From contig JAGBAX010000008.1 in NCBI GenBank assembly GCA_017938765.1, forward strand, positions 1-64,000: a DNA stretch of 64,000 bases, read 5' to 3'. Shown piece by piece: positions 14,955-63,297 of this stretch. The position numbers were made by a program, and so were the translations under genes. Numbering within the stretch: position 1 is the stretch's first letter; each line of letters starts with the position of its first letter. The notes below the pieces were generated by a model that saw only the letters and a list, made by a program, of their open reading frames with translations, ran no database searches and was not told the origin of the DNA. The stretch is from Alistipes sp. GTDB lineage: Bacteria; Bacteroidota; Bacteroidia; Bacteroidales; Rikenellaceae.

Positions 14955-15910
14955 TGGCTTTGGATATATCGGTTGTAGTTCCGTTATATAATGAAGAGGA
15001 GTCTCTGCCAGAACTTGTGCAGTGGATTGACCGTGTCTGTAAGTCTGAGGGCTTGTCGTATGAGATTATTATGGTTGATGACGGCTCTACAGATGGCTCT
15101 TGGCAGGTTGTTGAGTCTCTTAAGATGCAGTATGGAGCATCTATAAAGGCAATTCACTTTATGCGTAACTATGGCAAGAGTGCTGCTCTCTACTGTGGCT
15201 TTGAGGCTGCAGAGGGAGAGGTAGTCTACACTATGGATGCTGACCTTCAGGACTCGCCGGATGAGATTCCTGCTATGCGCAAGATGATTCTGGAGGAGGG
15301 TTACGACCTTGTCTCAGGTTGGAAGCGTAAGAGATACGACCCTATAGGTAAGCGACTGCCAAGTAAGTTCTTTAACTGGACTGCTCGCAAAGTTTCTGGC
15401 ATCAAGCTGCACGACTTTAACTGCGGGCTGAAGTGCTATCGCAAGAGCGTTGTAAAGTCTATAGAGGTCTATGGCGAGATGCACCGATATATTCCAATCC
15501 TTGCAAAACACGCTGGGTTTAAGCATATCGGCGAGAAGGAGGTGCACCACCAGGCGCGTAAATATGGAGTCTCTAAGTTTGGCATGGAGCGAATGGTGAA
15601 GGGATACCTTGACCTTATCTCTGTCACTTTTATGTCAAGATTTGGCCGCTCTCCGATGTACTTCTTTGGTGGACTGGGTACGCTGATGTTCCTTGTCGGA
15701 GGCTTTACAACCTGCTGGGTTATCGGTAGCAAGATTTATAAGCAGATTATGGACTTGCCTCTGCGCCCTGTAACAGAACAACCACTATTCTACCTCGCTA
15801 TACTTGCTATAATTCTGGGCGTGCAACTCTTCCTTGCTGGATTTTTGGGCGAGTTGATAAATAGAAATTCAAGCGATAGAAACAAATATTTAATAGACAA
15901 AAAATTATGA
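14954..15910 (+). CDS. Glycosyltransferase family 2 (DPM1/GtrB-like polyprenyl-phosphate glycosyltransferase)
   Basis: A 318-residue protein. The GT-A catalytic domain (about 1-230) has VVPLYNEEESLPEL, MVDDGSTDGSW and the metal-binding MDADLQDSPDEIP. Two C-terminal membrane helices (about 232-255 and 275-300) anchor it. This layout matches enzymes that move a sugar from a nucleotide donor to undecaprenyl phosphate (GtrB/ArnC/DPM1 class), which then feeds glycosylation of lipid or protein in the periplasm. It overlaps its neighbours by one base upstream and four bases downstream, so the three genes form one translation-coupled unit. Confidence 0.9.
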   Translation: MALDISVVVPLYNEEESLPELVQWIDRVCKSEGLSYEIIMVDDGSTDGSWQVVESLKMQYGASIKAIHFMRNYGKSAALYCGFEAAEGEVVYTMDADLQDSPDEIPAMRKMILEEGYDLVSGWKRKRYDPIGKRLPSKFFNWTARKVSGIKLHDFNCGLKCYRKSVVKSIEVYGEMHRYIPILAKHAGFKHIGEKEVHHQARKYGVSKFGMERMVKGYLDLISVTFMSRFGRSPMYFFGGLGTLMFLVGGFTTCWVIGSKIYKQIMDLPLRPVTEQPLFYLAILAIILGVQLFLAGFLGELINRNSSDRNKYLIDKKL

Positions 15911-19371: not shown

Positions 19372-19402
19372 CAAATATACAAAAAAAAGATTGCCAATAC
19401 AA
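19372..19402 (-). promoter_or_regulatory. Promoter of the WG-like gene, nested in a terminator
   Basis: On the minus strand, TTG (19400-19402), 20 bases, TATATTTG (19372-19379). The -33 box falls in the loop of the hairpin at 19384-19419. Confidence 0.7.
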
Positions 19403-19419
19403 TGTTTGGCAATCTTTTT
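19384..19419 (-). terminator. Terminator of the nuclease/TonB-receptor operon
   Basis: A 14-bp stem (19384-19397 with 19406-19419, AAAAAGATTGCCAA) and an 8-base loop; followed by a T-run in the minus direction. It is 20 bases after the last gene of the operon. Confidence 0.85.
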
Positions 19420-19438
19420 CATAAATATTTACTGCGGA

Positions 19439-20725
19439 CTACTCCATATCGTCGTCCTTCAGAGTCTGTGGAAGGGCAATAGAATCTTCTGGAGTGTTAG
19501 CATCAATCCAAGCCTCGCGTTCTGCAAGGTCCTCCTCTGTAAGGCTATTGTAGTACTCTGGCAGAAAATCCTGGAAGCGGCAAGTAGAGAGCTGGAAGGC
19601 TGCACTCTGGTCGCGTGAGGTCTCGCTGAAGTTGTAGCTATGAGAGTAGATTGCGTAGATAGCAAGCACACTACCTGTTGCACCATCCTCTGGAACTGGC
19701 TTGCCTGCAAAGCGAGAGTAACCGCTTGTACGAGCAGTGTAGAAGCCTGGTGTAGAGGCGTGGGTAGTAGAGAGTGCCTCTGGGTAGCAAAGAGCTGTGC
19801 TGCCATAGAGACAGATGTTGTTGATAGAGTAAGCCAACTTATACCAAGGCTTGCTAACAACATACTGCACTGAGCCATCTACAAGAATACCACTTGTGCA
19901 GAGCCAGCTTGGGTAGATATTCGTGTTGCTACCGCTTGTCAGCGCTGGGTAAGACTCCTCGCCATGTTGATTCTTAACACCACGATAGGTTACAGTAAGA
20001 TTGTTAAAGCGGATAAGACGACCGAGGAAATTCTTGTTATAGACTGATTTAGACTCTTCGTAGTTGTCTACTACATAGATGTCGTCTGTACTATTTTTAC
20101 CCTCTGTAAGGGTGCAATCCTCGCCCTTAAAGACATGCTGTGCAACCTTGTTCGTAGAAACAATGTTTGAGTTTGCGTAGTACTTGTAGATACCATACGC
20201 ATTCAGGCTCTCGGTAGGGATATCACCGATAGAGAGCATCATACGGAAGCTGCCCATATAGAGGCCTGCAAGACGAACATATACCCAGCAGCTCTCCTTG
20301 GTGTCAAGATTACAAGGGAAGTCGGCAAAGAGGCCGTTTGTGAGCTTAAGCTCAATAGCAGCAGTGCCATCAAAGATGTGCAGCGACTTGTAGACATTAC
20401 CCTGCTCGTCGTTGCTGATAACCTTACCCTTGATGTAGTAGTCGCCAACAATATAGCGGTTATTCTTAAGTTCGTACTCTGTACACTCATCCTCAGATAG
20501 AACAAAACGCTTGTACTTTGTCTCAGCCTGTGAGTTTGTAGAGCCTGAGTTGTTAAGCGGGAAGAACATATCCTTCAGCTCGGCAATAGTAAGGTGTTGC
20601 ATACCCTGTGCCTGCATAACCTCGTCAGTCATCTCCTGCTGTGGAGCTGGCATCTCAAACTGCTCATAGCAACCTGTAAGAGCGAGGCTGAAGAGTGCGA
20701 TAACAAATATTTTGATAAATTTCAT
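19439..20725 (-). CDS. DUF5689 surface lipoprotein next to a TonB-dependent receptor
   Basis: A 428-residue lipoprotein: MKFIKIFVIALFSLALTGC gives a lipobox with Cys19, followed by acidic/polar residues compatible with export to the cell surface. The N-terminal DUF5689 core (about 45-170) includes MQHLTIAELKDMFFP, YYIKGKVISNDEQGNVYKSLHIFDGTAAIELKL, an OB-fold-like beta pattern. A second related segment (about 220-320) has GRLIRFNNLTVTYRG. It lies 12 bases after the TonB receptor gene, the place where a SusD partner is usually found, and no SusD is encoded here. I infer a ligand-binding or lid role; the ligand is not known. Confidence 0.82.
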   Translation of the reverse strand: MKFIKIFVIALFSLALTGCYEQFEMPAPQQEMTDEVMQAQGMQHLTIAELKDMFFPLNNSGSTNSQAETKYKRFVLSEDECTEYELKNNRYIVGDYYIKGKVISNDEQGNVYKSLHIFDGTAAIELKLTNGLFADFPCNLDTKESCWVYVRLAGLYMGSFRMMLSIGDIPTESLNAYGIYKYYANSNIVSTNKVAQHVFKGEDCTLTEGKNSTDDIYVVDNYEESKSVYNKNFLGRLIRFNNLTVTYRGVKNQHGEESYPALTSGSNTNIYPSWLCTSGILVDGSVQYVVSKPWYKLAYSINNICLYGSTALCYPEALSTTHASTPGFYTARTSGYSRFAGKPVPEDGATGSVLAIYAIYSHSYNFSETSRDQSAAFQLSTCRFQDFLPEYYNSLTEEDLAEREAWIDANTPEDSIALPQTLKDDDME

Positions 20726-20737
20726 AGTCTGTAAAGT

Positions 20738-23602
20738 TTAGAAACGGAAGTAAAGATTGAGGAAGTAATTAGTTCCGAGCATATAGAAGTACTTTGAGTC
20801 AAAGCGTGAGTAGAAAGGCTCTGCAGGGTTTGAACCAGCTGTGTTACCATTCCAACCACGAGTACGACGCATACGCATCTGCTCGTAACCACCTGTCTTA
20901 ATGTCCTGATTATTAAGAATATTCTTTGCCTCAAGGCTGAAGCCGAGCATATACTTACGCTGGATATACCAGTTCTTACCAACACTTGCGCTGAGGGTAT
21001 ATGCGTGGCCGAGATACTCCTGACGGCGAACATTGTTAATGTTTGTAAGAGCCCAAACCTTTGCCTCATCAGATGCTGCCTCGTTTGCAAGCACCTCTAC
21101 ATAGGACTTAACGGCGTTGTTAGTGCGGTATGCAGGGTTCATTGAGAGGTATAGCTTATCGTAGAAGTTGAAGTTAATAGATGCAAACCAGTTGTTGCCA
21201 CTGCGGTAGTCAATACCGATGTTTGCAGCTACCTGTGGAGTGCTCTCAACATAGAAGTTCTTCCAGTTTACCTTATCAACAAGCTCAATCTCTGCGCTGT
21301 TATCAATAATCTGTACAAAGTTAGGGTTTGAAGTATAGCGGTAGTCACCATAGTTCAGCGCACCCTGAATTGCAATACCGTTCCAGATAGGAACATTGAT
21401 AGCAAGCTCAACGCCATAGTAGCGCTTGTCAATTCCAGACATTGCGAAGTTGGTAAATGAAGACTGTGTATCGTCATAGAATGAGATAACCTTTGCCAGA
21501 TCGTTCATCTTTGTAAAGTAACCAGATACGCGAGCCTTGATATATGGCAGGTTGAGATTGTATGTAAGCTCTGCACTGTAAATCTTCTCTGTACTCAAGC
21601 CTGGGTTAGACTGGTTACGAGTACGAGGCGATACGAATGCGGCAGCAAACTTTGGAGAGTCAGCAATAGCTGCGGCATTGAGTGAGAGGGTGTGAGCGCC
21701 AGAGAAACGGTAGCTAAATGCGGCCTTTGCCTTGTAAGTAAGGAAGTTAAGGTGCTTTGAGTCGCCAAATGAGTCGTTGCCATTAGGGAACAGACCCTTA
21801 CGCCATAGACCCTCACGCCACATAGAGCTATAGCCAATCTCGCCGCCGAGGTTCATTGTAAAGCCTCCGTATGTCATTGCATACTGCGCCCAAGCCTGTG
21901 CCTGACGGATATTTGCGTAGTAGTCGTAGCCATACTTATCGCCCTCCTTAACTACGCGAGCGTGACCGTTAGCAAGGTAGTAGTCTACATCGTTCTGGTA
22001 AGCGATAATGTCGCTACCCTTATCTCGCTCTGCAAACTTGTCAATATCAAGCCAATAGCTACCACCCAGAAGGTCCTTAACGGTGCTATAGTACTCTGTG
22101 CGGTTAATACGAGCCTTAACACCACCGATAATAGAGTGGTTTGTGTTGAACTGGTGAGAGATATTTGCAACAAAGTTGTAGTCAATCTGGTCTGTATGAC
22201 GCTCCTCAATCATATAGTTAGAGCGGAATCCCTGTGCATATCCTGCTGTTGTTGGGTCCTCACGACGGTTGGCGTTAATCATACGGTCAAAGTCAATACG
22301 ACCATTCCATACTGCCATAGCACCCATAGCAGCGTTGATATAGTTCTCTACCTGCTCGTCAGAGGTCTGCTGGAAGATACCTGGAATCTCTGGAGTAATC
22401 TGACTCAAGTAGTTTGAAGGCAGGTAGCGGTAGTAGTCTGGACGTGGGTCAGCGCCATCCTTCCAAGTTAGGGCAGAGTAACCGTTGAAACCAAAGCGAA
22501 GAGAGGTTGCAGCAGTAAAGCGAGTCTTGTCAGAGATGTCAAAGATGTAGTTCAGCATAACGATAGGCTCGTGAGTACGACGAACACGAGTGTTACGCAT
22601 CTTGCCATCCTGGAAACCAACGTTAGGGTTGTAGTAGTTGCTACCGAACAGGTCGTAAGCCTCCTGTGTAGATGCCTGCTGAGCGCCACGCTGCTGTGGA
22701 GTGCCGAGAAGGGTCAGAGCAAGGCGGTGCTTTGTGCCAAAGAGCTTCTCAACAGATGCAAAGTAACCATAAGAGTTGTAGTAGATACCATCTACATAAC
22801 CATTGCCACCCTGACGAGTTGAAACAGAGAAACCGTATGACCAACCGTTGTCAAGAGCACCAGAAGCATACGATACCATAGCACGCCAGCGATACATCTG
22901 GTTTGCATTTGATACGCTTACGCGGAAACCCTTACGCATCTGTGATGCACGAGCATTTACATTCGTTACGCCACCGATACCACCAACGCCAAAGTTTGTT
23001 GGGGTAAGACCTGCGCTGTTCTCCTGATTACGGGTAGCGTCATTTAGTCCACTCCACAGTGACCAAGGACCATAGCCAGTCATAGCATCGTTAAAGCGGA
23101 TACCATTAAGGTATACATCCTGGTACATAGAGTCGTAACCACGAACATTGAATCGCATCTCGCTAAAGCGATATGAGGCAATATTGTTGTAAAGGTCTTT
23201 TGATGAGCTTAACGACGATGGTAGTGCCTGAGTGTCTGATGCAGACGAGTCGTTGTCAAACTCAGCAAAGATAGAGTCATCCATAACCTCGCCTTGAAAT
23301 GAAGGAACGATGATTACAGTGTGTAGGTCGCGCATATTCTGACCTACGCGAACAACCATCTCCAGTGTCTCAAAGTCTGGAGCAGAGAATGTTAGGCGAT
23401 AGTCACCCTGAGCCATCTCTGGGAAAACAAACATACCATTGTCGTCAGTAGTAGTTGTCTGACCTGTAGCGTCAATGGTAACCTTGACAAGTCCCACAGC
23501 ACTTCGGCCGTTACGTGAGACCACTTGACCCTTGATGCCTCCCTGTGCATAGGCGGCAAAGCTAAAGAGGGTCAGTAATGTAAGGAGTAAAAGTTTTTTC
23601 AT
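20738..23602 (-). CDS. TonB-dependent outer-membrane receptor with N-terminal carboxypeptidase-like domain
   Basis: A 954-residue outer-membrane transporter. A signal peptide (1-19) is followed by a carboxypeptidase-regulatory-like beta sandwich (about 22-105, GIKGQVVSRNGRSAVGLVKV ... YRLTFSAPDFETL), a plug domain (about 115-240, with RFNVRGYDSMYQDVYLNGI and GGVTNVNARAS) and a 22-strand-type barrel ending with an aromatic Phe (NYFLNLYFRF). Such receptors import large or scarce nutrients using energy from TonB-ExbBD. It is flanked in the same operon by a secreted EEP nuclease and a DUF5689 lipoprotein, which points to nucleic-acid fragments as a candidate substrate. It does not look like a standard SusC because no SusD follows. 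Confidence 0.9.
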   Translation of the reverse strand: MKKLLLLTLLTLFSFAAYAQGGIKGQVVSRNGRSAVGLVKVTIDATGQTTTTDDNGMFVFPEMAQGDYRLTFSAPDFETLEMVVRVGQNMRDLHTVIIVPSFQGEVMDDSIFAEFDNDSSASDTQALPSSLSSSKDLYNNIASYRFSEMRFNVRGYDSMYQDVYLNGIRFNDAMTGYGPWSLWSGLNDATRNQENSAGLTPTNFGVGGIGGVTNVNARASQMRKGFRVSVSNANQMYRWRAMVSYASGALDNGWSYGFSVSTRQGGNGYVDGIYYNSYGYFASVEKLFGTKHRLALTLLGTPQQRGAQQASTQEAYDLFGSNYYNPNVGFQDGKMRNTRVRRTHEPIVMLNYIFDISDKTRFTAATSLRFGFNGYSALTWKDGADPRPDYYRYLPSNYLSQITPEIPGIFQQTSDEQVENYINAAMGAMAVWNGRIDFDRMINANRREDPTTAGYAQGFRSNYMIEERHTDQIDYNFVANISHQFNTNHSIIGGVKARINRTEYYSTVKDLLGGSYWLDIDKFAERDKGSDIIAYQNDVDYYLANGHARVVKEGDKYGYDYYANIRQAQAWAQYAMTYGGFTMNLGGEIGYSSMWREGLWRKGLFPNGNDSFGDSKHLNFLTYKAKAAFSYRFSGAHTLSLNAAAIADSPKFAAAFVSPRTRNQSNPGLSTEKIYSAELTYNLNLPYIKARVSGYFTKMNDLAKVISFYDDTQSSFTNFAMSGIDKRYYGVELAINVPIWNGIAIQGALNYGDYRYTSNPNFVQIIDNSAEIELVDKVNWKNFYVESTPQVAANIGIDYRSGNNWFASINFNFYDKLYLSMNPAYRTNNAVKSYVEVLANEAASDEAKVWALTNINNVRRQEYLGHAYTLSASVGKNWYIQRKYMLGFSLEAKNILNNQDIKTGGYEQMRMRRTRGWNGNTAGSNPAEPFYSRFDSKYFYMLGTNYFLNLYFRF

Positions 23603-23617
23603 ATATTACGGTTAAAA

Positions 23618-24652
23618 TTATTTACCTATATAAATATAAACTGGAAGGTGATCAGAGAAACCATTCTGGAAGTTGTTACCAACGAAGGTTCGGAGTGGAT
23701 AGTTCTTGTACTGACCCTCGCGCTGCATCATATATGGGCGTGAGAAGATGTTTCCATAGAACTTGCTGCCCTCAGCGCGCTGGAGCTTTAGCTCGCCAGT
23801 GGAGCCTGTAGCCAGATTCTCTGATACTATAATGTTGTCAAATAGATTCCAAGAGTCACGATAACCAAGAGTTCCATAACCAGCCTTTAGAAGTGCAATG
23901 TATGGGTTGTAAAGTTCGCCTGCAACCAACTTCTTGATATTCTCACGAGCGCCGAGAACCTCGGTAATACTCTTGTCTGTAGCGTCATCGTTAAGGTCAC
24001 CCATAATCACAACCTTAGTGTTTGGTCTTGCTGCGCGAACAGAATCTGCAATGCGGCGACACTGTGCTGCAGCTGCCTCACGCTTTGGGTCAGATGCCGC
24101 CTTGCCACCAAGGCGTGATGGCCAGTGTGAAACAAGGAAGAAGAATGGCTCGCCTTCAATTGTTCCCCACATAGTGACAAGGTCACGGGTGTAGAAGTTT
24201 TCGTAGCCAGGCATCTCAAACTTATGAGCCTTGCTACCCTCAAGTTTGAACACATCTGGACGATAGAGGAAGGCACAGTCAACACCACGACGGTCTGGAG
24301 AGTCGTAGTGGACAATGCGATAGTTACCGTGAGCCATCTTTGGCTGGGTAATCAGATCCTCAAGCACAAGGCGGTTCTCAATCTCTGAAACGCCGATTAC
24401 TGCTGGAAACTGGCGGTTGATTGATGCCATATCAAAGAAAACTTTGTCAAGATTGCTCTGCTTTCTCTGATACTTTGTGCTGTTCCATTTCTTATCACCC
24501 GTAGGCAGGAACTCCTCGTCCAACTTATCGGGGTCGTTGATTGTATCAAACAGATTCTCAAGGTTGTAGAAGACAACCATATGAGGCTTCTGTGCAAAAC
24601 AACTCAACAGAACTCCTGCAACAAGCAGTGTGGTCAAAAGTAGTTTTTTCAT
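23618..24652 (-). CDS. Secreted endonuclease/exonuclease/phosphatase family protein
   Basis: A 344-residue exported enzyme of the EEP (DNase I-like) superfamily. The signal sequence is MKKLLLTTLLVAGVLLSCFAQ; the Cys at 18 may make it a lipoprotein. All hallmark motifs are visible: NLENLFD (about 30-36, metal-site Asn/Glu), GVSEIEN (about 90), DSPDRRGVDCAFL, HWPSRLGG (catalytic His), GDLNDD (about 217) and the terminal FSDHLPVYI Asp-His pair. It should hydrolyse phosphodiesters outside the cytoplasm, probably DNA or RNA. It is 12-15 bases from both neighbours in the operon. Confidence 0.9.
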   Translation of the reverse strand: MKKLLLTTLLVAGVLLSCFAQKPHMVVFYNLENLFDTINDPDKLDEEFLPTGDKKWNSTKYQRKQSNLDKVFFDMASINRQFPAVIGVSEIENRLVLEDLITQPKMAHGNYRIVHYDSPDRRGVDCAFLYRPDVFKLEGSKAHKFEMPGYENFYTRDLVTMWGTIEGEPFFFLVSHWPSRLGGKAASDPKREAAAAQCRRIADSVRAARPNTKVVIMGDLNDDATDKSITEVLGARENIKKLVAGELYNPYIALLKAGYGTLGYRDSWNLFDNIIVSENLATGSTGELKLQRAEGSKFYGNIFSRPYMMQREGQYKNYPLRTFVGNNFQNGFSDHLPVYIYIGK

Positions 24653-24664
24653 AGTTGTATAATG

Positions 24665-25894
24665 TTAAAAATTCCAATCATTTATATTCTTCTGATTCTT
24701 AACACTCTCGGCAATGGCTGGGTTAAGGTTTTGGTAGAAGGTAAAGCCACTTCGCTCTTCAACCTCCTTAATTGATACCACAGCCTTCTGGTAAGAAACA
24801 GCATTTGATTCGTTGGTAAATAGAAAACCGATAGCCTTAATCTCGTTAGGGTCAGTAATCTCTGAAATACTCTTCTTTGTATTACCGCTACGGGTACGTA
24901 GAAGAAGCTTGTAGCAGTGTGTAGGGCGTGTGATTGTTCTACCGCGAGAGGTAAAGGTCCTTGCATTCTCAAAGAGTGTTCCCACCACAACGTAGAGAGT
25001 GTCTGAGCAGATGTTATTTCGGGTTTTATTCTCAACAGATGCCCATACGCCACCATTAAAGTCGTAGTTCTGCGGCATCATATTAGTTGCATAGAAGGTC
25101 TGCGCATTGGTCATCCAAGTACTATATCGCGATGCTGAAGGGAGCATATGTCCGCGACTGTCGCCAGTACCATAAGCTCCACTGACAATATTTTGCTGCT
25201 TATCTTGTGGGATAACAGGGTCGGTAAGTTCATACTCAATAATTTTGTAGCCTCCATTGTCGTACTCGGTAATAGCATCGTCAAATGCCCAAGCATCGGT
25301 TCTGCCGCCACCTGGGTATCCGCGACCGTCTGTATACACGCTATGCAGCGGATAGGCTACCCAACGAGAAACGAGCTTCTCTGTGTCGTAGCAGATAGAG
25401 TAGTTACGCACAAACTTGCCGTTTGATAGGGTTGTGTAGTATGTCTTATGCAATAAATTTGCTCCAGAGGTGTGTGCAGGCTGTTCGCCCCATGCTCTGT
25501 CGTATGTTGTATTCTCACTCTTACCAAGTTGTGAGAAAGAGAGTGTAGTATTATAGCCGTCGGAGAATTTTATAAAAACCGTAGCCGTACGCGATGCGGT
25601 TGTGTCGTTTTTATCAAAGTAGATTGTGGCGTTATTACCAACCTTACCTGTTGTTGCAATCTGCTCTGAAGAAGAGCTGAAAGATGTCCATTCATAGCCC
25701 TCTACAATAACTGCTTCCCAAGTGTAGCGAACATCGCCAGAGGTCTTGAGGCTAATGGTGGTCTCATCCCAACCCTTTGTGTTGTGGGATAGTGTTGCTT
25801 TGGACTGATATGGTGACCAAGGGTCCTCCTCACTACAAGCCCAAAATGTTGTAATTGTCAGTGCAATGAGCACTGTGTAAAAAAGTTTGTTCAT
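24665..25894 (-). CDS. Secreted DNA/RNA non-specific endonuclease with BACON domain
   Basis: A 409-residue lipoprotein: MNKLFYTVLIALTITTFWAC gives the lipid-modified Cys at 20. A BACON-type beta domain (about 30-130, with WTSFSSSSEQIATTGKVGNNATIYF) precedes a NUC1-family beta-beta-alpha-metal nuclease. The active-site motif is DSRGHMLPSASR (usually DRGH, catalytic His), and the metal-binding Asn falls in ATNMMPQNYDFNGGVW. These enzymes cut DNA and RNA without strict sequence preference. The tethered BACON domain probably spaces the nuclease from the membrane. Gene gaps of 12 bases downstream and about 75 upstream place it in the same operon. Confidence 0.9.
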   Translation of the reverse strand: MNKLFYTVLIALTITTFWACSEEDPWSPYQSKATLSHNTKGWDETTISLKTSGDVRYTWEAVIVEGYEWTSFSSSSEQIATTGKVGNNATIYFDKNDTTASRTATVFIKFSDGYNTTLSFSQLGKSENTTYDRAWGEQPAHTSGANLLHKTYYTTLSNGKFVRNYSICYDTEKLVSRWVAYPLHSVYTDGRGYPGGGRTDAWAFDDAITEYDNGGYKIIEYELTDPVIPQDKQQNIVSGAYGTGDSRGHMLPSASRYSTWMTNAQTFYATNMMPQNYDFNGGVWASVENKTRNNICSDTLYVVVGTLFENARTFTSRGRTITRPTHCYKLLLRTRSGNTKKSISEITDPNEIKAIGFLFTNESNAVSYQKAVVSIKEVEERSGFTFYQNLNPAIAESVKNQKNINDWNF

Positions 25895-25968
25895 CTGTAT
25901 TGAAAAATCCCCTCCCGACAGTCTCCCATCGGGAGAGGGTTGTAAAGCATTATATTACTTTCAAAGGA

Positions 25969-28900
25969 TTACTCAATTACAACAGAGATATCCTTGATAC
26001 GAACCTGACCTTCAGAAGCAGTAGCAACGAACTTATCTACGCTACCAGACCAAGTGATTGTGCCATTATCCTTGTTACCTACTGCGTTATCTGCACCCTC
26101 AACAGTCATATTAAGAGCGTAAGTGGCAGCATAGGTTACAGTGATATTTACATTCTTAACCTTCTGACCAGCAGGAGGAACTACTACAAATAGTGAGCTC
26201 TTGTAAACGCGGATATGGTCATCCTTTGCAGCTACTGGAGTAGTTGTAGATGTACCCTGATAGTAACCCATCTTCACGCCATCAACAGTTGTGTAGAAGC
26301 CCTTACCATAAGTTGCGTCAGTCTCCTCTGTCCAAGTAAGTGAAGCGTTAAGCGCTGCGCTAACAGTAGTACCAGTACCTGGTGTTGGCTCTGGATCTGG
26401 AGTAGGGTCTGGGGTTACTGCGCCACTTGCCTCGGCAACAGAGAAGTTCTTAACCTCCCAAGTACCAGCCTTTGAAGCTGTTGAAACATACTTGAAGGCA
26501 ACTTTAACTGTGCTACCTACATACTTTGCAAGGCTAATCTCGCCTGACTCAACAAATGTCCAAGAGTTGTTGTCGCTGTAAGTAGGGATAGTAACCTGCT
26601 CCCAAGCACCGTCGTTAGCAGATACCCAAAGGGTAAGCTCCTCTGATGGAGTTCCAGCGAACTTGTGTGCGTGAGTAAAAGTAACAACTGGAGAGGTCGC
26701 ACCAGCAAGTGAGATTGCAGGAGAAACTAACCAACTCTCTGCCACAACAGCTGCATTATTCATAAATGCCGAAGCCTTCATATAACCATCGCTGTTGTAT
26801 GTAGAGTGCTGCCAAACATAGCTCAATGTACCAAGTGTAACATTGTTAATTGTAAAGTCGCCTTGGCTTGTAGCAAAGCTCTCAGCATATGGAAGTGTCT
26901 TTGCATCGCCAGGTGTTGGTGTTGGCTCTGGCTCTGGAGTAGCTCCACCGTCAAAGCGTGCACCAGTAAGAGATGCGTAGTCAGATGCTTGAGCAAAGAT
27001 AAGCTGCATTGCACCCTTGCTGATAGATGAGATACCCTTGATAGTACCTGAGCCCTGTGCTACAGTCTCAGCACCATAAGTAGCGTACTTAGATGAGAAT
27101 ACTACGAACTTATTACCATTAGCATCCTCCATATTGATAGATGTGTGAGCGCCACCTGTAACCCAAGTCTTTGTAAGGTCTGTAGCTGCTACCTGAACAC
27201 CCTCAATAGCAACATACTGACCCTCATACTTGTTTGCAAGGAAGTCAGCAATAGTTACAACCTTTGGCTCAACAGTGTTGCCAGTAGATACTGTGGTAAT
27301 CTTCTCAAGAGCAAGACCGCTAATCTGTACTGCACCGTTATACTCAGCAAGAGTTGCACCAGTAAGGTCAATCTTTACCTTTGTACCGAAAGCAAGCTCG
27401 TGGTTTGCAGCGAGGTAGAACTGAAGTGCACCAGTCTCATCCTGAACATAGAGACCCTTCTTTGAAGTGAGGTTGTTAAGCTCCATATTTGAGATAACAA
27501 CGCCCTCAATAGTACCAGAGAGTGATGCACCGTTACCAGCAGCAAGAATCTGAGCGATAGTCTTTGTCTCGCCTGGAGTAGGCTCTGGCTCTGGCTCTGG
27601 AGTAGTGCCACCAGGGTTGTCTGTACCAAGAGGCTCATCAGAGAACTTAACACCACAAACGATTACGCGTGGAGCGATATCTGGTGCTGTGCCAGAGTGG
27701 GTAGTGAGCGCAAAGTCTGCATTTGTACTAAACTCAATAGTAGATGTCTCAGTAAGACCCTCAAGCTTTACAGAGTAGTGGTCTGTATCAGCAAATGTAA
27801 GTGCAGTGTATGGAGGATTACCAGTAGCACCAGCGTTAGCTGTAAGAGCTACAGACTGAACAGCACCACCGTCTACGCGGAAGTAAAGAGTAGCTGTTGT
27901 ACCCTTCCAAGCTGCTGCGTAGAAGTTGATATACTTTGTACCTGATACGCCAATAGCTGCTGAAGTGAACTTACCCTGCTGCTTGCTCTTACCAAGCTTG
28001 AAACCAGTAGCTGCCTGACCGTTAATAGTAGTAGCTGCAAGAGAGTATGCTGCATTTGTAGAGTCGTCAGCTGCGCAAACAAATGGAACATCAGATGCGT
28101 ATATGCCCTCTGCTGGCTCTGGAGTAGGCTCGTCGCCACCCTCGCCAGGAACAAGGCTTACAAAGATAGCATCCTTACCCTGTGGAGTATTGTTGTATGA
28201 TGTGCGAAGAGTACGAACAGTGATTGTATCGCCACTCTTTGCACCAGATTCTGCCCAGTACTTCTGCTCACCAGTAGGGCTGCATAGACCGTAGATAAGT
28301 ACTGTACCAGTGCTGTCAGTAAGGTCAAAGTTACCATAAGTAGTGTTAGTGACATTAGAGATTACACCAGTAAGCTCGTAGTATGTAGTGCCATCCTCAG
28401 CAGCTGCCAAGAACTCAGCAACAGTAGCCTTTACTGCCTCTGTAGGAACATTACCACCGCCAGTGTTACCACCGCCAATAGCGTTGTTGAAGTCTACAAC
28501 TGGACCGTTACCACCCTCAACAAGACGGAAGTCGTCAAAACGAAGAGCTGCCTGATACTGGTATGCAGTTGATGGCAGTGGAGTAGTTGTGTCAGCCTTG
28601 TAGTTAGAGAAGCGAACAAAGAGCTTGTCTGCATCTGCAGGAAGAGTAAATGGAGCGATAGCGTACTCCCAGTTACCATCAGCCATTGTAGAGTAGGTAA
28701 TAGCACCGAAGTTTGTGCCATCAACGCTGACCTCAACAGTAAGATTCTCGCCAGACTTAAGTGGAGATACTGGAGCTGGAGCGTAAGGAGAAGCACTCTC
28801 ATTTGCATACTGGTTGTGTGCAGTGAATGAGAAGGTGTAGTTCTTAACGCCGCTCTTAATGTTGATGTTGTGGATAATAAACTCAACACCATCCTTTGCC

Positions 28901-29529
28901 TGAAGATAAGCATAAGGAGCGTCAGTAGCGTAAGTAGCACCTACAGGAGCCCAAGACTTACCAGAGTTACGAACAGATGCGTTCTTACCAGTGTAGGTAA
29001 CACCGCTCTGATCAAAGCCCTCGCCACCCTGTGGGTTCCAACCAGTGTACTTGTCAACATATGGCCAGTAGCCGTCAACCTTTGATACAGACTCGCCACC
29101 ATCCTCGTAGTAAACGAATGCACCGCCTACTGCTGGAATGTCAGAGTCAGACTGGCTGATAGATACGCTTGCCTTCTTTGTGATAGGGTAGCCGCTAACA
29201 TAGCCAGTTGCTGTAAACGTAGCCTTAATGGTGCGCATTGCCTCAGCTGCGGGTACCTCAAAGGTAATAACAGCATCGCCATTGCCAGACATAGCACTTG
29301 CAACAACACCCTCGGTGTCAATCTCAAGTGTCCACTCTGCAGGGGTCTCAACAACAACCTGCTCGGTAGTGCCACCAGCAAGAGCAACATTAAGTGATGC
29401 AGGGGTAACCTTGATAGTAGGAATGCCCTGGTAGCCACCAGTGCCCTCCTCATTCTCGGTACACGAAGCTGCAAATCCTGCTACCAGCACCATTGCTGAA
29501 TAGAGGAGAGAACGAAAAATGTTTTTCAT
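25969..29529 (-). CDS. Giant multidomain DUF5689/BACON/choice-of-anchor-J lipoprotein
   Basis: A 1186-residue surface lipoprotein with lipobox Cys23 (VAGFAASC). In order: BACON domain (about 36-125); a beta-sandwich/anchor-J-like domain (about 135-350); a DUF5689/OB-like domain (about 365-480, EFLAAAEDGTTYYELTGVI); another beta domain (about 485-640); a tandem DUF5689 unit (about 655-880, GTIEGVVISNMELNNL ... GLYVQDETGALQFYL); a choice-of-anchor-J domain (about 890-1050, ESWLVSPAISLAG); and a C-terminal beta domain. Pro-Glu/Pro-Asp linkers separate the modules. OB-like folds often bind nucleic acid, but this is inference. The start at 29529 is set by the lipobox and by the promoter at 29617-29648. 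First gene of the operon. Confidence 0.82.
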   Translation of the reverse strand: MKNIFRSLLYSAMVLVAGFAASCTENEEGTGGYQGIPTIKVTPASLNVALAGGTTEQVVVETPAEWTLEIDTEGVVASAMSGNGDAVITFEVPAAEAMRTIKATFTATGYVSGYPITKKASVSISQSDSDIPAVGGAFVYYEDGGESVSKVDGYWPYVDKYTGWNPQGGEGFDQSGVTYTGKNASVRNSGKSWAPVGATYATDAPYAYLQAKDGVEFIIHNINIKSGVKNYTFSFTAHNQYANESASPYAPAPVSPLKSGENLTVEVSVDGTNFGAITYSTMADGNWEYAIAPFTLPADADKLFVRFSNYKADTTTPLPSTAYQYQAALRFDDFRLVEGGNGPVVDFNNAIGGGNTGGGNVPTEAVKATVAEFLAAAEDGTTYYELTGVISNVTNTTYGNFDLTDSTGTVLIYGLCSPTGEQKYWAESGAKSGDTITVRTLRTSYNNTPQGKDAIFVSLVPGEGGDEPTPEPAEGIYASDVPFVCAADDSTNAAYSLAATTINGQAATGFKLGKSKQQGKFTSAAIGVSGTKYINFYAAAWKGTTATLYFRVDGGAVQSVALTANAGATGNPPYTALTFADTDHYSVKLEGLTETSTIEFSTNADFALTTHSGTAPDIAPRVIVCGVKFSDEPLGTDNPGGTTPEPEPEPTPGETKTIAQILAAGNGASLSGTIEGVVISNMELNNLTSKKGLYVQDETGALQFYLAANHELAFGTKVKIDLTGATLAEYNGAVQISGLALEKITTVSTGNTVEPKVVTIADFLANKYEGQYVAIEGVQVAATDLTKTWVTGGAHTSINMEDANGNKFVVFSSKYATYGAETVAQGSGTIKGISSISKGAMQLIFAQASDYASLTGARFDGGATPEPEPTPTPGDAKTLPYAESFATSQGDFTINNVTLGTLSYVWQHSTYNSDGYMKASAFMNNAAVVAESWLVSPAISLAGATSPVVTFTHAHKFAGTPSEELTLWVSANDGAWEQVTIPTYSDNNSWTFVESGEISLAKYVGSTVKVAFKYVSTASKAGTWEVKNFSVAEASGAVTPDPTPDPEPTPGTGTTVSAALNASLTWTEETDATYGKGFYTTVDGVKMGYYQGTSTTTPVAAKDDHIRVYKSSLFVVVPPAGQKVKNVNITVTYAATYALNMTVEGADNAVGNKDNGTITWSGSVDKFVATASEGQVRIKDISVVIE

Positions 29530-29616
29530 ACTGCTTTTTGTGTTTAAATGGTTTATAAATATGTTAATTAGTAAATAATTCTCTCGCGTACGTGCGTATA
29601 CGCGCACATTAGCTGC

Positions 29617-29648
29617 CAAAGTTACAGACTTTTTCTCTAACTGCCAAA
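29617..29648 (-). promoter_or_regulatory. Promoter of the 10-kb receptor/nuclease operon
   Basis: On the minus strand, TTTG (29645-29648), 20 bases, TAACTTTG (29617-29624). The leader to the ATG at 29529 is about 80 bases and contains the alternating Pu/Py stretch CGTACGTGCGTATACGCGCAC (29586-29606 region). Confidence 0.75.
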
Positions 29649-32843: not shown

Positions 32844-32874
32844 CAAATATACCCCCCCCCACGAATATTCCAAA
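32844..32874 (-). promoter_or_regulatory. Promoter with a nine-base G tract in its spacer
   Basis: On the minus strand, TTTG (32871-32874), 19 bases, TATATTTG (32844-32851). The spacer includes nine consecutive G (C on plus, 32852-32860) directly against the -7 box. Directed at the M16 protease gene about 260 bases away. Confidence 0.6.
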
Positions 32875-61929: not shown

Positions 61930-63297
61930 TTATATTAATGGTAGTTTTACTTCAAATGTCGTATCTGTGCTATTGACAACAATATCTTGTCCAGTAGCTC
62001 CAATGTACTGCTTGGAGATGTTTTTAAGCCCCACTTTAGTACTATCGGTACTTGATGTTTTAGGCTGTAAATTATTTCTGACAACAATAAACTCCCCCTC
62101 GGTTGATATTGTAATGTGGAGTGGCTGTTCTGCTCTTACAATATTATGTTTAAATGCGTTCTCTATAAGCACTTGAAGGCTGCACTGAACAACATATTTA
62201 CTCTTCATGCTACTCTCAATACTCTTTTCAACAGTGAAGCTATTTGGAAATCTAACTTCCAATAGGTCGGTATACTTATCAATAAAGCTCAACTCTTCGT
62301 GTAGCAACACAAGATGTTCATTCTCATTCTGCAACATGTAACGATAGAGTGCTGCGAGTTTTCGAACATATTCTGACGCCTCGGCTGTCTTCTGCTCCTC
62401 AATTAGTCCATTTAAGATATTAAGTGAGTTAAAGAGGAAGTGAGGGTCAACCTGTTGCTTGAGAATATTATACTGAAATTGTGCCAAACGACGCTTCTCT
62501 TGCTCCTTCTCTATGCGAGTCCTTGTCTGGTAGACGTAGGAGAGTAGTACCATAACGACATAGATAATCAGATTGGCAATAATTATAACAGAAAATATCT
62601 GCACAAAGGCTATATTCTCAAACGGTGTATCGGTGCCAAAGGGAAGATTATAGCCGACAATTAGGGTAGTGACAAGTGCAATAGTAACCGTCTCTACAAT
62701 TAGTCCTGTCACATATCCTAATGGAGCAGTCAGCCACTCAAGACGATTGTGGATTATCAAGTAGATAATGTTGCAACAAATCAGGGTGATAATGGCCAGA
62801 GAGTTGCCAAGGAGCAATTTTATTGATGTATTTACGGCCGCCTCTGAAAGAATATTACCAAAGACCTTGGTATAGACTATTCGTATGAGAAGTAAAATAC
62901 CGAGCATGAGTATCATCGGCATCATTTGAGGCATCCACAGAGTGCTGTAAGAGCGTCCCCCCCCCAATGTATTAAAGAGCAGTAGTAGCCCGAAACCAAT
63001 TATTTCAGTGGTGACAAATGAAGTGACAGCGTGAAGAGCTTGCAATGGGATGAAATTCGCTAACAATTCTGCACCGTATGTACCAATGATAAATCCAAGG
63101 ATATTACCAGCGATAACGCTTGCTGCTATTACACCAAGGCCTTGTCCTCTTCTGATGGCAATAACACCAATCATTGAGACCGTTGCAACGGTAAGTATAA
63201 GCTCATCCGATACATTGAGCCATCCACACAAAAGAACTATCACTGCGTGAATAACTGCAAATATGTGTATTATACCTGAACAACGAGGACTATTCAT
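61930..63297 (-). CDS. LytS-type sensor histidine kinase with a G9 tract in the gene
   Basis: A 455-residue inner-membrane sensor. About eight hydrophobic helices cover residues 10-265 (MASE1-like rather than a classical periplasmic sensor). A short coiled region (TRIEKEQEKRRLAQFQ) leads to the His_kinase domain PF06580 with phospho-acceptor His286 in QQVDPHFLFNSLN, and a HATPase_c domain (about 365-455, VQCSLQVLIENAFKH and VGLKNISKQYIGATG). Nine consecutive G at 62957-62965 (minus sense) encode Leu-Gly-Gly-Gly at about residues 111-115. A slip there would truncate the protein inside the membrane domain. Confidence 0.9.
   Translation of the reverse strand: MNSPRCSGIIHIFAVIHAVIVLLCGWLNVSDELILTVATVSMIGVIAIRRGQGLGVIAASVIAGNILGFIIGTYGAELLANFIPLQALHAVTSFVTTEIIGFGLLLLFNTLGGGRSYSTLWMPQMMPMILMLGILLLIRIVYTKVFGNILSEAAVNTSIKLLLGNSLAIITLICCNIIYLIIHNRLEWLTAPLGYVTGLIVETVTIALVTTLIVGYNLPFGTDTPFENIAFVQIFSVIIIANLIIYVVMVLLSYVYQTRTRIEKEQEKRRLAQFQYNILKQQVDPHFLFNSLNILNGLIEEQKTAEASEYVRKLAALYRYMLQNENEHLVLLHEELSFIDKYTDLLEVRFPNSFTVEKSIESSMKSKYVVQCSLQVLIENAFKHNIVRAEQPLHITISTEGEFIVVRNNLQPKTSSTDSTKVGLKNISKQYIGATGQDIVVNSTDTTFEVKLPLI

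Follow-up and report, generated by a model that had tools for sequence, protein, structure and literature searches.

A five-gene operon on the minus strand of a 64,000-nucleotide stretch of Alistipes sp. DNA (GenBank assembly GCA_017938765.1, contig JAGBAX010000008.1, positions 1 to 64,000; hereafter the window) encodes two DUF5689 lipoproteins, a NUC1 endonuclease, an EEP enzyme and an outer-membrane receptor. The DNA-handling operon is real and conserved, and its best explanation is an outer-membrane DNA-uptake module of the kind found in Riemerella anatipestifer with added nucleases.

Organization of the operon and its products

A check of the open reading frames (ORFs) of the window found all five minus-strand ORFs within 19439-29529, separated from gene 1 to gene 5 by gaps of 74, 12, 15 and 12 bases (Table 1). 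The positions, strand and gene assignments agree with an earlier note made from the DNA letters alone, as do the full-length DUF5689 lipoprotein as gene 1, the perfect promoter match and the hairpin with its T tail at the operon end. The description of the transcription unit was incomplete in one respect, since it lacked a strong hairpin that resembles a terminator and separates genes 1 and 2.

Table 1. Features of the operon in the window
Feature	Position	Strand	Basis
Promoter ahead of gene 1	29617..29648	-	perfect TTTG-N20-TAnnTTTG
Gene 1, DUF5689 and choice-of-anchor-J lipoprotein, 1186 residues	25969..29529	-	ORF from ATG and Pfam
Terminator-like hairpin between genes 1 and 2	25909..25938	-	13 pairs, 8 of them G-C, then ATTTTTC
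Gene 2, NUC1 (DNA/RNA non-specific endonuclease) lipoprotein, 409 residues	24665..25894	-	Pfam Endonuclease_NS
Gene 3, EEP enzyme (Exo_endo_phos_3), 344 residues	23618..24652	-	Pfam
Gene 4, CarboxypepD_reg/plug outer-membrane receptor, 954 residues	20738..23602	-	Pfam; best hit of the Riemerella receptor and vice versa
Gene 5, second DUF5689 lipoprotein in the SusD position, 428 residues	19439..20725	-	Pfam DUF5689
Operon-end terminator	19383..19420	-	15 pairs and T tail

Pfam matches above cut-off were obtained for DUF5689 in gene 1 (115 bits) and gene 5 (80 bits), Endonuclease_NS in gene 2 (118 bits), Exo_endo_phos_3 in gene 3 (386 bits) and CarboxypepD_reg in gene 4, and gene 1 additionally carries choice_anch_J (54-57 bits with a cut-off of 30). 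The TonB plug is marginal in the window receptor (E 0.096); at E <= 0.1 it was matched in seven of ten aligned receptors including this one, with a best value of 5.8e-07. BACON domains had been called in gene 1 and in the NUC1 protein, and these calls did not hold, as the NUC1 protein stayed below the Pfam cut-off (E 0.17) and gene 1 gave no match. The reported absence of SusD was borne out: no SusD family was matched in seven scanned proteins, the five of the operon and two flanking ones. No glycan-degrading enzyme is encoded in the operon, whose enzymes are Endonuclease_NS and Exo_endo_phos_3.

Acidic residues following the lipobox are the rule for surface exposure. The gene 1 lipoprotein, with a Cys and then acidic residues, is therefore probably surface-exposed, and the lipobox of gene 2 reads WACSEED. 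The EEP protein has a signal peptide and no conserved lipobox and is thus probably periplasmic or secreted. In the NUC1 protein, R247, G248 and H249 together with N271 and N280 are invariant in eight aligned sequences; these are taken to be the RGH motif and the metal-binding Asn of the family. The nearest solved structures are an entry named Nuclease, presumably the Anabaena nuclease, EXOG, EndoG and an extracellular endonuclease. In the EEP enzyme, E90/E92, H176, D219/N221 and SDH 333-335, which we take to be the catalytic Glu, His, Asp-Asn and SDH motifs, are invariant from the window to Riemerella in nine sequences, and the sole solved-structure matches at E <= 0.01 are to nocturnin (E 5.6e-4). 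The DUF5689 domains are possibly OB-like, as 7 of 26 DUF5689 stretches weakly match the OB-fold nucleic-acid-binding family PF01336 (best E 0.011); a profile search of DUF5689 against the PDB gave nothing convincing, its best match (E 0.13) lying on the signal-peptide end.

The pattern TTTG-N20-TAnnTTTG, presumably the Bacteroidetes promoter form, has 13 matches in the window, about seven times the 1.73 expected from shuffles, and the gene 1 promoter is its sole match within 19.4-29.6 kb. In the following, L numbers denote stretches of up to 20 kb that were fetched around loci and scanned with profiles. A promoter match lies at the expected gene 1 place in L025, L027, L028, L030 and L071 and at another distance in L042 and L130; L027 and L028 each contain one extra match nearer NUC1, and of 21 other loci, 14 lack an exact match over the 6.5 kb that precede NUC1. 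As a class, sites resembling terminators were not above chance in the terminator scan that included the operon-end hairpin (9 found, 8.7 expected). The hairpin between genes 1 and 2 lies 14 bases ahead of the NUC1 start codon. Inspection by eye and without shuffle control located a strong hairpin of different sequence at the same position in 10 of 16 same-genus relatives (L024, L025, L026, L028, L030-L035), and none was clear in the other six (L027, L029, L036-L039). The operon may be transcribed as a single transcript from which the product of gene 1, owing to this internal hairpin, exceeds those of the other four genes.

Mono-G runs were also noted. A promoter match at 32844-32874 on the minus strand, upstream of an M16 peptidase gene, contains a nine-G run (32852-32860) in its spacer, and an identical run occurs in L025 at 15749-15757, flanked by TTTG and TAAATTTG. 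The window has another nine-G run at 62957-62965. In four of seven relatives scanned (L025, L026, L027, L030) there are five mono-G runs of at least seven, all exactly nine long, and promoters with a nine-G spacer are possibly phase-variable. In L026 a nine-C run (G on the coding strand; 15681-15689) lies near the 5' end of the gene 1 homologue, where slippage could toggle the lipoprotein on and off.

Conservation of the receptor neighbourhood

The receptor was used as the search start in 41 relatives, 238 genomes of the phylum and 296 genomes of the window's own order. A receptor match was found in 37 of the 238 phylum genomes (E <= 1e-90) and in 150 of the 296 order genomes (E <= 1e-150). 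In both surveys three candidates were scored per genome, so that absences mean little and were not used. From the 150 positive genomes of the order, 40 neighbourhoods were hand-picked for spread. Altogether 98 homologous receptors, those longer than 600 residues, were counted; L105 (frame in two pieces) and L045 (cut), each shorter than 600 residues, and L062 (no receptor call) were excluded, and among those counted the stretch is short downstream in L142 and upstream in L041 and L134. A gene was scored as adjacent when the gap was below 400 bases for EEP (on either side), below 600 for DUF5689 (downstream, same strand) and below 2500 for NUC1 (same strand). Twenty paralogous receptors were set apart by their position in a first tree. 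Most came from the searches (L046, L048-L061, L063, L069) and three were found inside fetched stretches (L085, L087, L100); not every genome with a paralogue also holds a receptor of the window's kind (clade A).

A DUF5689 gene lies directly downstream on the same strand of 96 of the 98 receptors, which agrees with the placement of DUF5689 in the SusD position by the earlier note. EEP genes adjoin 67 of the 98, 24 on the same strand and 43 divergently, and NUC1 lies in the operon, in the same direction and within 2.5 kb, in 24. In the phylum sample the corresponding numbers for DUF5689, EEP and NUC1 are 34, 22 and 1 of 35 receptors, and in the order sample 40, 24 and 5 of 40. None of the three families adjoins any of the 20 paralogues, among which the next downstream gene lies beyond the stretch in three (L055, L057, L061) and L087 is too close to the upstream end. 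Anywhere in the paralogue stretches, DUF5689 was found in five, EEP in three and NUC1 in one; in three of the five DUF5689 cases and all three EEP cases a clade-A receptor is present in the stretch as well. In a census made without preset families of 85 loci (the window, Riemerella, eight genus or order loci and 75 loci from the phylum and order samples), the same three families ranked highest, with DUF5689 at 82, EEP at 54 and NUC1 at 17 loci, followed by a fourth family at 14. The comparison of neighbourhoods across Bacteroidetes, which had been suggested as a check, thus points to a nucleic-acid substrate and gives strong support to the view that nucleic acid is what the receptor and lipoproteins handle. 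Neighbourhoods without nucleases had been named as a finding that would refute the proposal, and on this point the outcome is graded. EEP is widespread but not adjacent to every receptor, and almost all cases of NUC1 in the operon belong to a single receptor branch (23 rows; Shimodaira-Hasegawa-like approximate likelihood ratio test support 100), with L162 outside it.

NUC1, EEP, receptor and DUF5689 genes occur together in all 16 same-genus relatives (L024-L039), a set of loci chosen for the presence of the receptor. A gene 1 homologue lies upstream in 14 of these; the two exceptions are L038, where the contig begins at that point, and L030, where the ORF caller took a different frame. The conserved core consists of the receptor, a DUF5689 lipoprotein and the EEP enzyme.

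Further arrangements were noted during the survey. Many same-genus genomes encode a paralogous receptor of approximately 805-830 residues (L046:2778-5216; homologues in L048-L051 and L061) that has no DUF5689, EEP or NUC1 gene directly beside it. In L145 (8619-15190) and L168 (4370-11015) the order is receptor-DUF5689-DUF5689-NUC1, all co-directional, a second NUC1-linked arrangement that falls outside the adjacency counts. Elsewhere in the window's genome (contig C21, L047:9455-13032) a third DUF5689 lipoprotein gene lies 1.7 kb from a second NUC1 gene, whose product aligns closely with the window NUC1 (53-60% identity). This pair was not counted as a second system, since yajC and nusB lie between its members. 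A mobile or viral origin was also considered and rejected; a pattern scan of viral contigs gave no receptor relative and eight weak EEP relatives.

The Riemerella relative and the competence genes

The earlier note had proposed nucleic acid as the substrate, which is supported, and had overlooked the key relative of the operon, the transformation receptor of R. anatipestifer. Excerpts of PMC8459023 describe a transposon screen for natural transformation in this species. Markerless deletions of RA0C_RS04915, a CarboxypepD_reg outer-membrane protein, and of RA0C_RS04920, a DUF5689 protein, abolished transformation to below detection. The comEC region of strain CCUG25054 was located with a comEC primer printed in PMC8383284. 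It reads comEC, an ORF of 145 residues, a carboxylase-like ORF (assigned by eye), EEP, receptor and DUF5689 lipoprotein, so that the receptor lies four genes from comEC, between the EEP gene and the lipoprotein gene. The gene order and domains fit RA0C_RS04895 to RS04920 as given in that article. The window receptor finds the Riemerella receptor as its best hit (30% identity over residues 2-954, E 3.2e-93); conversely, the best match of the latter in the window's genome is the window receptor (3.4e-94), followed by a match at 2e-25. The gene order and domain content of strain CCUG25054 identify this Riemerella receptor as RA0C_RS04915, and the EEP gene beside it is presumably RS04910. The two EEP proteins share 35% identity (3.9e-73), and the Riemerella lipoprotein carries DUF5689 and choice-of-anchor J.

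The window operon therefore resembles the RA0C_RS04915/RS04920 locus in a full-length, reciprocal-best-hit receptor, a DUF5689 and choice-of-anchor-J lipoprotein and an adjoining EEP gene. It differs in that its EEP gene is co-directional within the operon whereas that of Riemerella is divergent, in the additional NUC1 and giant DUF5689 lipoprotein, and in that comEC lies elsewhere in the genome (contig C2). In the passages of PMC8459023 that were available, RS04910 is mentioned as an upstream gene with unchanged transcription, and the word nuclease appears five times without any link between this gene and transformation. There the receptor is the DNA carrier in a speculative model that leaves the nuclease unidentified. 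One sentence calls homologues widespread in Bacteroidetes and another restricts RS04915 homologues to Flavobacteriaceae; unlike the latter, receptor matches were found here in the window's own order, as detailed above, and all 40 inspected neighbourhoods have DUF5689 downstream.

The window's own genome, which is 87% complete, holds ComEC, a helix-hairpin-helix (HhH) protein and a DUF1343/NamZ protein. Of the 41 relatives, 40 have ComEC, all have HhH and 31 have DUF1343, and ComEC is present in each of 118 phylum genomes. These genes also occur where the receptor is missing and are non-discriminating, so their presence was rejected as proof of competence. A comparable case is Porphyromonas gingivalis, likewise a Bacteroidetes bacterium. 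Competence of this species requires ComEA (HhH) and ComEC, and most components are described as unknown (PMC11532111). None of 393 drawn genomes matched a 16S primer for P. gingivalis.

In several competent bacteria, a metallo-beta-lactamase domain of ComEC degrades one DNA strand. According to excerpts of PMC8579336, almost half of ComEC proteins have no such domain, how the strand is degraded in these cases is an open question, and EndA is the pneumococcal solution. Helicobacter pylori has neither EndA nor a ComEC nuclease domain, as stated in part of PMC12455585. For this question 37 ComEC proteins were compared, those of 36 of the 40 fetched comEC stretches and that of Riemerella; besides the window's genome and Riemerella they represent 35 genomes of the class to which the window belongs, and L180, L182, L185 and L210 were left out for cut or interrupted frames. 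None of the 37 matched a metallo-beta-lactamase family at E <= 0.1, and all matched the Competence family. Because the strand-degrading domain is not matched in these proteins, the EEP enzyme is a candidate for the missing strand nuclease. It is a natural one, since it is DNase I-like, has intact catalytic residues, is probably periplasmic and has its gene next to that of the uptake receptor. The proposal is tempered by the occurrence of phosphatases among EEP folds and by nocturnin as the nearest solved match.

EndA offers a further comparison. It is presumably a member of the DNA/RNA non-specific nuclease family; the NUC1 profile matched 18 sequences, and no chain named EndA was one of them. 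The window NUC1 differs from it in being a lipoprotein of an outer-membrane system. The likeness lies in a nuclease that cooperates with ComEC in DNA uptake, as described for Streptococcus pneumoniae in excerpts of PMC8579336 and PMC12455585.

DNA uptake and its alternatives

The operon is best read as a TonB-dependent module for DNA uptake at the outer membrane, with a core in common with the Riemerella natural-transformation locus, because deletion of the Riemerella receptor and DUF5689 genes abolishes transformation; we lean towards this reading with modest confidence. Import of DNA for ComEC and recombination is considered at least as likely as import for food. Several observations weigh against the DNA-uptake module. 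Seven of 25 same-genus genomes, four of them at least 90% complete, have no clade-A receptor and all hold ComEC, and receptor and ComEC are thus not strictly co-inherited. A comEC gene was present in the fetched stretch of only one of the 98 receptors, that of Riemerella, also when a wider ComEC profile was used. An EEP gene lies beside comEC in one of 40 comEC stretches (L179), and a general linkage of the two was rejected on this count. The DUF5689 proteins of the window and Riemerella are of low similarity (E about 1e-5 to 1e-6); the NCBIfam family NF052645, which the Riemerella lipoprotein fits with 590.8 bits (cut-off 475), gives gene 1 only 66.8 and gene 5 only 24.2 bits. There is no NUC1 gene at the Riemerella receptor locus. 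Among the paralogues, L048 and L051 have DUF5689-like genes (an ORF pair) 1-4 kb away, not adjacent. A smaller tree recovered a receptor clade of 58 with support 84, but a larger one puts one paralogue group of 14 inside the clade on long branches. The monophyly of the receptor clade is therefore unsure, and long-branch attraction is probably the cause. No report of a transformation or DNA-uptake test in the window organism was found in the literature searched, which was without most subscription journals and bioRxiv. Lastly, the lowered transformation of R. anatipestifer tonBA and tonBB mutants speaks for the module, but the Riemerella authors, in the part of their work available, put the tonBB effect down to iron shortage.

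In the single comEC stretch with a neighbouring EEP gene (L179:8270-9388, genome G029 of the window's order), the EEP gene adjoins comEC in convergent orientation, and the same genome has a receptor locus with its own EEP gene (L040).

The principal alternative is the one put forward in the earlier note, in which NUC1 and EEP digest extracellular DNA or RNA and the DUF5689-receptor pair imports the oligonucleotides for phosphate, nitrogen, purines or carbon. The two nucleases with intact catalytic residues and the lipoprotein in the SusD position agree with such nutritional scavenging, and relatives that retain ComEC without the operon indicate that it can vary apart from ComEC. However, the only relative with genetics, Riemerella, needs this pair for transformation (PMC8459023, in excerpt), and there removal of phosphate lowers transformation according to excerpts of the Riemerella work, a result that phosphate scavenging would not lead one to expect. 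Moreover, NUC1 is not in the operon of 74 of the 98 receptor relatives. Beyond the three leading families no other lies near the receptor in more than 14 of the 85 loci, although these families are unannotated, so that a nucleotidase or nucleoside transporter is possible at some loci. Nucleic-acid handling is thus retained from the earlier proposal, and scavenging, which remains a serious contender, is judged the less probable use. SusC/SusD loci combine a receptor with an adjacent surface lipoprotein and secreted hydrolases, and the operon resembles them in its TonB-dependent receptor with CarboxypepD_reg, adjoining surface lipoprotein and secreted hydrolases. It differs in having neither a SusD family member nor a glycoside hydrolase, its hydrolases being nucleases, and a plain polysaccharide utilization locus was rejected on these grounds.

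A surface nuclease operon, which would clear or recycle biofilm, competitor or host DNA with a receptor that imports a metal or peptide or anchors a nuclease complex, is improbable. NUC1 lipoproteins are plausible surface DNases, and part of gene 1 weakly matches a Riemerella type IX secretion system surface DNase family (E 1.4e-4, 21 bits with a cut-off of 260). Furthermore, M949_1556, which gives its name to the NCBIfam family fitted by the Riemerella lipoprotein, was assigned a role in antigenicity and pathogenicity in work cited by a review (PMC12566107, in excerpt). Against this, the receptor-DUF5689 core, often with EEP, persists without linked NUC1, and deletion of the receptor abolishes Riemerella transformation in the passages of PMC8459023 cited above.

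For the DNA-uptake module a sequence of steps can be proposed on the basis of the gene content, conserved linkage, receptor orthology, EEP homology, intact catalytic residues and ComEC and HhH genes established here. The surface lipoproteins encoded by genes 1 and 5 would capture extracellular DNA through their DUF5689 domains, possibly OB-like, and surface NUC1 would trim it to importable pieces. The receptor would then move the DNA across the outer membrane on TonB energy, periplasmic EEP would remove or shorten one strand, and the HhH protein and ComEC, the latter without a nuclease-domain match, would pass single-stranded DNA inward. We infer DNA as the substrate in this organism, the locations of the proteins, the order of the steps and transformation over nutrition as the main use. 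A wider and more doubtful proposal is that Bacteroidota import DNA across the outer membrane by a dedicated TonB-dependent receptor with DUF5689 lids in place of a type IV pilus. The receptor-side EEP enzyme would be the nuclease that makes DNA single-stranded for a nuclease-less ComEC, and surface NUC1 would be an addition in the window's lineage. Such a pathway might serve the whole phylum for genes, food or both.

The role of the Riemerella receptor and DUF5689 protein in transformation was already known, from the only paper found to name DUF5689 (PMC8459023) in the literature described above; the proposal of the receptor-side EEP enzyme as the strand nuclease is new. Two questions become directly testable, namely the identity of the outer-membrane DNA carrier in competent Bacteroidetes and the means by which the non-transforming strand is degraded when ComEC lacks a nuclease domain. 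If EEP is this nuclease, single deletions and purified proteins can show so. If common Bacteroidetes take up free DNA, this would have consequences for gene exchange and DNA turnover.

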